Positions 2,408-8,132 of a stretch of 64,000 nt of DNA are shown here, piece after piece. Positions within the stretch are counted from its first letter, which is position 1. The number at the start of each line of letters is the position of its first letter. Below the pieces are notes generated by a model that was not told where the DNA came from, did no database searches, and saw only the letters and a list, made by a program, of their open reading frames with translations. The DNA lies in the NCBI RefSeq assembly GCF_000259195.1, contig NZ_JH650760.1, forward strand, positions 183,219 to 247,218. The letters run 5' to 3'. The DNA comes from Pseudomonas donghuensis (GTDB lineage: Bacteria; Pseudomonadota; Gammaproteobacteria; Pseudomonadales; Pseudomonadaceae). The position numbers were made by a program, and so were the translations under genes.

Positions 2408-2438
2408 CCCCTTACCCTCAACCGCAAGGAGCTTCATC

Positions 2439-2606
2439 ATGACTGCACAGCAAACCCCGGCCGTGGCGCAACGCCAACGGTGCGAAGTCTGGACCCGGGT
2501 CATGGGCTATCACCGCCCGGTGTCGGCGTTCAACCCCGGCAAACAGTCCGAGCACCACGAGCGGCTGCACTTCAATGAGGGTGCGGCAACGGCCGGGCAT
2601 CCATGA
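2439..2606 (+). CDS. separate glycyl-radical segment of class III ribonucleotide reductase (55 aa)
   Basis: A 55-residue gene with its own strong ribosome binding site AAGGAG at 2426-2431, seven bases before the ATG. The product contains WTRVMGYHRPV followed by AFNPGKQSEH. These match the C-terminal glycyl-radical loop of NrdD proteins (RVxGY then FNxGKQxE), with Gly23 as the expected radical site. It lies in a different frame from nrdD, 31 bases after its stop, and its TGA overlaps the ATG of nrdG (ATGA), implying translational coupling with the activase that would install the radical. The inference is that it docks onto the large protein as a separate subunit, much as the GrcA/YfiD spare part does for pyruvate formate-lyase. 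I have not seen the assembly proven; the motif itself is clear. Confidence 0.88.
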   Translation: MTAQQTPAVAQRQRCEVWTRVMGYHRPVSAFNPGKQSEHHERLHFNEGAATAGHP

Positions 2607-3298
2607 ATCGAGCGCTACGGGTCGGGGGCATGGTGCCCCTGACCACCCTCGATTACCCCGGCAGGCTGGCCTGTGTGCTGTTCTGCCAGGGCTGCGCCTG
2701 GCGCTGTCGTTACTGCCACAACCCGCAACTGATCCCGCCCCGGGGCAGCGATGAACTGCCCTGGGCGCAGGTGCTGACATTTTTGCAGCGGCGTCAGGGC
2801 CTGCTCGACGCCGTGGTGTTCAGCGGCGGCGAACCGACCCTGCAAGACAGCCTGGCCGAGGCCATGGCCCAAGTGCGGGCCATGGGTTTTGCCATCGGCC
2901 TGCACAGTGCCGGGATCAAGCCCGCGGCCTTTGCCCGGGTGCTGCCCGGCGCCGACTGGGTGGGCTTTGACGTCAAGGCGCTGGCCGAGGACGGCCAGAC
3001 GGTCACCGGCGTGCGCGGCAGTGGCCAGGCCAACTGGCGCAGCCTCGACTACCTGCTGGCCAGCGGCGTCGACTACGAATGCCGCACCACGGTGCACTGG
3101 CACCTGATCGATCCCCCCCGACTCATCACCCTGGCCCGGCGCTTGAACGCGCTCGGGGTCAAACGCTTCGTCGTGCAGTTGGTGCGCACGGCACGCATGC
3201 TCGATGCGCAATTGCCCAGTGCTTCGGCACAAAGCTTGCTGCCTGAGCTGTGGGGCACCCTCCACGCGCTGTTTCCCGCGTTCGAAGTACGCGACTAG
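2603..3298 (+). CDS. nrdG: anaerobic ribonucleoside-triphosphate reductase activating protein NrdG
   Basis: Radical SAM activase of 231 residues that generates the glycyl radical on NrdD. The cluster motif CAWRCRYC (CxxxCxxC) lies at about residues 31-38, and the SAM-contact sequence SGGEPTLQ follows near residue 74. The ATG overlaps the stop of the 55-residue glycyl-radical gene by four bases, so the substrate peptide and its activase are probably made in step. The start MNRALRVGGMVPLTTLDYPG is typical of this family. Expression is expected from the Anr-controlled promoter upstream of nrdD. Confidence 0.94.
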   Translation: MNRALRVGGMVPLTTLDYPGRLACVLFCQGCAWRCRYCHNPQLIPPRGSDELPWAQVLTFLQRRQGLLDAVVFSGGEPTLQDSLAEAMAQVRAMGFAIGLHSAGIKPAAFARVLPGADWVGFDVKALAEDGQTVTGVRGSGQANWRSLDYLLASGVDYECRTTVHWHLIDPPRLITLARRLNALGVKRFVVQLVRTARMLDAQLPSASAQSLLPELWGTLHALFPAFEVRD

Positions 3299-8118: not shown

Positions 8119-8132
8119 TTGATCTGCATCAA
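8119..8132. promoter_or_regulatory. Anr/FNR box upstream of the DUF3079-type gene
   Basis: TTGATCTGCATCAA matches TTGAT-N4-ATCAA exactly. Its centre is 68 bases before the ATG at 8194, which would allow a class II (-41.5) activator position with a short leader. It is the second perfect Anr box in the window and points to low-oxygen induction of the downstream small gene. Confidence 0.78.

Follow-up and report, generated by a model that had tools for sequence, protein, structure and literature searches.

Near the start of the window, the whole 64,000-nt stretch of Pseudomonas donghuensis DNA that was analysed, lie three adjoining genes on the forward strand. The first, nrdD (395–2407), encodes the large chain of a class III ribonucleotide reductase (RNR): 670 amino acids with an ATP-cone and a catalytic barrel (models NF006126, PF03477, and PF13597) and without the glycyl loop. 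Its start is more likely the ATG at 395, with GGAGG just upstream, than the alternative in-frame GTG at 380. The final unit of the chain is a C-x2-H...C-x2-C zinc knuckle (CPVHGY...CPKC, 2312–2362, recognised from the sequence), which presumably binds zinc. The TGA stop (2405–2407) comes 14 codons past CPVHGYLDGEHEFCPKC, and there is no RVxGY in NrdD: the chain does end after its knuckle without the radical motif, as a sequence-only reading of this DNA had stated.

A ribosome-binding site (AAGGAG, 2426–2431, forward strand) lies 7 nt upstream of the ATG of the second gene (2439–2606), which is in the +1 frame relative to nrdD and has a product of 55 residues containing RCEVWTRVMGYHRPVSAFNPGKQ (also given as CEVWTRVMGYHRPVSAFNPGKQ). 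This is the predicted glycyl-radical subunit, by its match to positions 530–562 of PF13597, an alignment with Thermotoga maritima NrdD, and its dN/dS. The predicted radical glycine is Gly23, encoded by the GGC codon at 2505–2507. The TGA of this small gene (2604–2606) overlaps, as ATGA, the ATG at 2603 of nrdG (2603–3298, forward strand), which encodes the radical-SAM activase. The same earlier reading had given the middle gene its own AAGGAG, a different frame, the missing loop, and an overlap with nrdG, and is borne out on each point.

Upstream of nrdD, at 295–308, there is an exact match to TTGAT-N4-ATCAA, which we take to be the consensus for Anr/Dnr (FNR)-like boxes, suggesting induction of nrdD at low oxygen. 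The window has two exact matches, against 0.02 expected by chance; the second is at 8119–8132. In Pseudomonas stutzeri, enzymes of the nrd cluster were found by proteomics to be up under oxygen limitation; the accessible part of that paper does not name the small protein (PMC10433244).

A single Pfam domain is covered in complementary fashion by the first two gene products. NrdD matches NF006126 at 1128.7 bits (cut-off 548), the ATP-cone model PF03477 at 69.9 bits, and the NRDD domain PF13597 at 581.8 bits over profile positions 2–528; the small protein matches PF13597 at 34.7 bits (cut-off 26.2) over positions 530–562. The domain is divided exactly at the cut, which the sequence-only reading had placed between two known structural units. 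As to what is expected of a class III enzyme, NrdD has the catalytic domain and the ATP-cone, the RVxGY loop is present but carried by the second polypeptide, and NrdG is a dedicated radical-SAM activase (TIGR02495 NrdG2, 212.3 bits, cut-off 131.15). A profile of small proteins puts the glycine of RVMGY on Gly621 of T. maritima NrdD (4coi), the match being weak (E 0.75); according to PMC4493059, it is this residue that bears the radical in the T. maritima enzyme. The window small gene has a dN/dS of 0.12–0.30 against each of the 12 relatives compared.

The genome has one PF02867 match, corresponding to one other RNR large chain, and so gives no indication of a class II RNR in addition to it. 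A search of the genome with the pyruvate formate-lyase (PFL)-type glycyl-radical domain PF01228 gave no match (three of 14 control genomes have one), and the small protein does not match it either: at E values up to 1, it matches PF13597 alone. With no PFL-type domain and one other RNR large chain in the genome, the split enzyme is therefore the only candidate partner seen for the small protein. The lack of a PF01228 match in either the protein or the genome also led us to reject membership in the GrcA/YfiD family, which is that of PF01228.

Within the genus, NrdD was found in 31 of 149 genomes searched, and is split in all 31; the break is therefore not a sequencing error in this assembly, nor are its close relatives always fused, the two outcomes against which the original observation was to be judged. 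Thirty of these genomes have two separate matches, and the single match in G014 has an internal TGA; in G005, G068, and G081 the match table shows both pieces in one open frame, with an in-frame stop between them in the sequence, and the status of G053 comes from the match table alone. At the level of the order, NrdD occurs in 29 of 194 genomes: in 19 it is split and belongs to the same type as the window NrdD, nine have one-chain proteins of other NrdD types (22–25% identical to it, three of them judged by match range alone), and one (G239) needs another genetic code. At the level of the phylum, 57 of 398 genomes match: 12 have two separate pieces, G528 additionally has stops inside one match, G611 and G675 have two pieces in one frame, G649 has a weak partial match below the family cut-off, and the remaining 41 are mostly single matches spanning the whole profile.

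The search that the sequence-only reading had proposed, for loop-less NrdDs beside short RVxGY genes, was made among fetched loci, 174 in number and partly redundant, whose NrdD aligns with that of the window over more than 450 residues at 45% identity or higher. Left out before this count were duplicates (the small loci L002 and L060; L217–L221 and L234), five loci with short NrdD alignments (L072, L123, L160, L172, and L173, all split by the same rule), two without NrdD (L068 and L103), and 31 of other NrdD types. The arrangement sought was found in 152 of the 174, with the small ORF adjoining nrdD; 15 are fused, one (L230) is split with its pieces about 9 kb apart, and six were not classed by the script. 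Three of these six (L209, L210, and L056) are split, and L106 is fused by its sequence; L199 and L206 have no loop nearby, and a small gene on another contig of the same genome. Separation is thus not obligatory, given the 15 fused loci and L106.

In the 152 split loci with adjoining genes, the small protein has 45–80 residues (median 56), and nrdG lies within 200 nt downstream in 146. The starts of the small ORFs were picked by a score favouring an ATG and a ribosome site, so that the count of 151 ATGs in 151 is partly built in. An SD-like tetramer precedes 144 of the 151 chosen starts, compared to 365 of 4386 ATGs inside nrdD, and a strong ribosome site 120 of the 151, compared to 34 of 4386 background ATGs, the excess in both cases coming partly from the choice of start. 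The large chain has the full C-x2-H/C-x2-C pattern in every one of the 152, which speaks against the small protein as a donor of a zinc ligand. We also considered a free cysteine pair on the NrdD tail as a replacement for the redox tail of class I and II enzymes; this is not general, because 113 of the 152 tails lack cysteine, and the window tail has none. A cysteine just before the loop (in CE[VI]W, CMVY, or ECW) is found in all 152 split small proteins, and is absent from the fused G690-type proteins (L211–L216). In L056 (G239 contig C163), in-frame TGAs fall, as judged by eye, mostly at positions where relatives have glycine, as in code 25, and the radical glycine of the small ORF is itself encoded by TGA; this is possibly a code-25 organism binned into the G239 genome.

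A genome scan found at least 556 stretches encoding a relative, from which 80 named loci were kept; the closest NrdD among these is from Pseudomonas wadenswilerensis (99%). In a plasmid collection, 29 records match, of which 16 were opened. Eleven of the 16 carry the split form (Cupriavidus necator H16 pHG1, C. metallidurans CH34, Paracoccus ferrooxidans, Cereibacter azotoformans, Bradyrhizobium ottawaense, Sulfuricystis, Azospira, Aquabacterium, Sulfuricurvum, Shinella, and Thiothrix) and three a fused form (Acidiphilium, Actinomyces oris, and Geoalkalibacter); the small gene is alone on the other two, both from Allochromatium. These orphan small “nrdD” genes, in A. vinosum pALVIN01 (L068, 3471–3680) and A. 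tepidum pAt1 (L103, 2460–2645), have no NrdD or NrdG within the stretches examined. On the Azospira sp. I09 plasmid (L067), the entire class III operon is between two class I RNR genes, in the order class I alpha, nrdD, small gene, nrdG, class I beta. In C. necator H16, the small gene on pHG1 is H16_RS32675. The small gene is often annotated “nrdD” as well, so that databases contain it without marking a separate subunit.

In a FastTree tree of 143 NrdD cores, built with the trait columns left out, the split trait changes 6 times, compared to 19.9 in shuffles, with the starred branches forcing at least 4 changes. Fused rows, for example those of Acidiphilium, Actinomyces, Maricaulis/Parvularculaceae, and G936/G847, occur among the split ones. 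We interpret this as a single old split that was followed by several re-fusions, on a tree whose root is unsure and in which long branches meet; repeated splitting may be the history instead. An association of the split with the ATP-cone was considered and dropped, since the cone is missing from many split rows and present in some fused ones.

The small gene is not always found beside nrdD. In G626 it is together with nrdG about 9 kb from nrdD, and in G953 the two are together on a different contig from nrdD; in both cases nrdG was confirmed by tblastn. Three genomes (G771, G963, and G788) carry, in addition to the linked copy, one more on a different contig, G711 has two such extra copies, and in G800 the sole small gene is on another contig, all of these unlinked or extra copies coming from partly incomplete assemblies. 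The extra copy in G771 probably lies in a prophage, since there is an endolysin-like gene (PHROG 894) nearby. For the G963 copy, location in a prophage is a guess: a neighbouring ORF resembles, by eye, one near the G771 copy, and neither of these matches a PHROG. The neighbours of one G711 copy (L224) appear, again by eye, mobilisation-like.

Relatives of the small protein are encoded by 149 IMG/VR contigs, of which 80 were kept (L239–L318). By script, 66 of these loci have a complete stand-alone ORF (for example, L240:4992-5123 and L281:4974-5180), nine are near the contig start, and three are open at the 5′ end; of the remainder, L302 has a long open frame and L306 shows no motif. A tblastn search at E 0.01 found neither NrdD nor NrdG in the 80 stretches (roughly 4–10 kb each), and did find them in the positive controls: NrdD and NrdG in both L107 and L175, and NrdD in L201. 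Whole records were searched for 45 of the 80, those with contigs of about 15 kb or more, leaving out L306 (20.9 kb): all 45 have exactly one PF13597 match, confined to profile positions 513–562, and the catalytic part of NrdD is absent, by this profile, from all 45. NrdD is thus likely absent from the entire phages, bearing in mind that the records may be fragments. The search was keyed to the conserved motif, and reductases of other types were outside its reach; conservation of the motif in the phage set is therefore partly by construction.

The longest ORF in 20 of the phage loci matches a PHROG in 15 cases, including terminase (2), major head (1), tail fibre or tape-measure (3), and integrase (2) genes; further loci have portal or head-tail adaptor, major head, tape measure, endolysin, and replication initiation genes. 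The window small protein and three phage small proteins that were scanned match PHROG 4132, annotated as of unknown function. The best bacterial match follows lineage for some phage copies (L316 to Sulfuricurvum; L271 and L272 to G771). No close copy was found in 50,697 named phage records: matches are below 60% identity, and in annotated records the genes concerned are labelled anaerobic reductase. One phage locus with the loop gene (L276) also has a reverse transcriptase (PHROG 1423), perhaps part of a diversity-generating element.

Taken together, these observations make it very probable that the locus encodes a two-polypeptide class III RNR, whose 55-residue glycyl-radical subunit is separately translated and acts in trans. 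At the level of sequence, they establish that NrdD is cut and that the cut is conserved, that the small gene has translation signals of its own, and that in some genomes and phage records it is independent of nrdD. The proposal that the loop is a separate subunit acting in trans thus finds strong support in copies away from nrdD, in extra copies, and in copies alone in phage records. In such an enzyme, the large NrdD would supply the ATP-cone, the zinc knuckle, and a barrel that holds the thiyl cysteine; NrdG, translation-coupled to the small gene, would place the radical on Gly23; and, before or after that step, the loop of the small protein would dock into the NrdD barrel and so start catalysis. 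An oxygen hit at the split-off end would then cost the cell the 55-residue chain rather than damage the large one. Docking, formation of the radical by NrdG on the small protein, its physical detachment, and GrcA-like replacement of the small chain once oxygen has cut it at the radical glycine are steps that we infer. An AlphaFold model of a natural fused relative, from Marinicaulis (L175; alignment A4, 31 rows), has a mean pLDDT of 73.1, with the loop region below 50.

The known one-chain class III NrdDs (T4; T. maritima, 4coi and 4u3e; Prevotella copri, 8p23) have the same barrel, zinc knuckle, RVxGY-type loop, and NrdG activase, and that of P. copri likewise has an ATP-cone; in these the loop is within the chain, whereas here loop and tail form a 55-residue protein of their own. 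With dATP at the ATP-cone of the P. copri enzyme, the whole glycyl-radical domain becomes mobile (PMC11226230, in its accessible portion), which makes a free part physically plausible and a detachable loop a small step. Phage nrdD genes are also found in pieces, through introns, inteins, or endonucleases (PMC3653736); as far as the available text of that source goes, these are mostly inserted elements, in contrast to a clean subunit boundary common to many bacteria. The split of the window gene can be further compared to genes of the same genus and of PFL. The class II NrdJab of Pseudomonas aeruginosa is also an RNR large chain in two genes; it uses cobalamin and no glycyl radical, and its cut is unrelated to the one in nrdD. 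The PFL spare parts GrcA/YfiD and T4 Y06I are likewise short stand-alone glycyl-radical proteins, trans-acting (as the small NrdD-loop protein would be) and also carried by phage, although they differ from it in family and target. PFL retains a loop of its own and uses YfiD only after damage, whereas split NrdD has none. In glycyl-radical proteins, oxygen cleaves the chain at the glycine, and YfiD or T4 Y06I restore cleaved PFL; the accessible text of PMC8683613 describes these two as the only validated spare parts, and considers ones for other enzymes possible.

By this analogy, the glycyl-radical subunit could be a transferable spare part, exchanged after oxygen cleavage, which phages carry alone to revive or commandeer the split NrdD of their hosts and so make phage DNA at the oxic-anoxic border. 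This is a tentative proposal, to which we give somewhat less than even weight as a whole; it is plausible that the part may be replaced when oxygen has damaged it and that phages may make use of it, and the extra and phage copies fit the damage-replacement reading without proving it.

The split might instead be real and functionally neutral, with the pieces assembling once and staying together and the phage copies mere passengers. That most copies adjoin nrdD and nrdG (nrdG in 146 of 152), and that fused forms occur among split ones in the tree, agree with this; to the contrary, the additional copies in genomes that already have a host copy, in one case close to an endolysin-like gene, and the stand-alone copies in at least 45 phage records suggest that the free part is beneficial. 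We regard neutrality as unlikely, but as a serious competitor to exchange.

Very little weight is left for a joining of the two frames in translation, by programmed +1 frameshifting or stop readthrough, into an ordinary one-chain NrdD. The small frame is open upstream to 2334, within nrdD, and the nrdD stop is in the context TGAC, so that a +1 frameshift product is a real alternative at this locus; it is the comparative data that reject it. Rather than a fixed relation across relatives, the frame of the small ORF relative to the nrdD stop is +1 in 63, 0 in 45, and +2 in 44 of the 152 loci, leaving no fixed frameshift; the nrdD stop is TGA in 107, TAA in 29, and TAG in 16; and the gap between the ORFs has a median of 32 nt and a range of −53 to 213. 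The small ORF starts at an ATG with a ribosome site of its own, and G626, G953, and the phage records offer no neighbouring nrdD to which it could be joined. A sequencing error or decayed pseudogene, suggested by the break itself and the existence of fused relatives and by nothing more, can be practically dismissed in view of the same cut in all 31 NrdD-bearing genomes of the genus sample and in complete plasmids such as C. necator H16 pHG1, and of the dN/dS of 0.12–0.30.

In the open-licence PMC literature, which does not include key older papers, we found no description of a stand-alone glycyl-radical NrdD subunit in bacteria or phages. Earlier work on individual systems is said to include that of Siedow (1999) on nrdDG of Cupriavidus H16 and of Wei (2014) on the NrdD of N. 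bacilliformis. If the exchange proposed here takes place, it would to our knowledge be the first spare-part system outside PFL.

The two-polypeptide reading would have practical consequences: nrdD expressed alone from a species with the split should then give inactive enzyme, and PHROG 4132, an unexplained phage gene family, would likely acquire a function. A natural system of this kind makes spare-part repair beyond PFL, a question raised in the accessible text of PMC8683613, directly testable. It also suggests a new route by which phages may feed on the nucleotide synthesis of their hosts. For the enzyme family itself, it would mean that an essential enzyme can bear its radical on a small protein apart from the main chain, both in a model genus and in numerous other bacteria.
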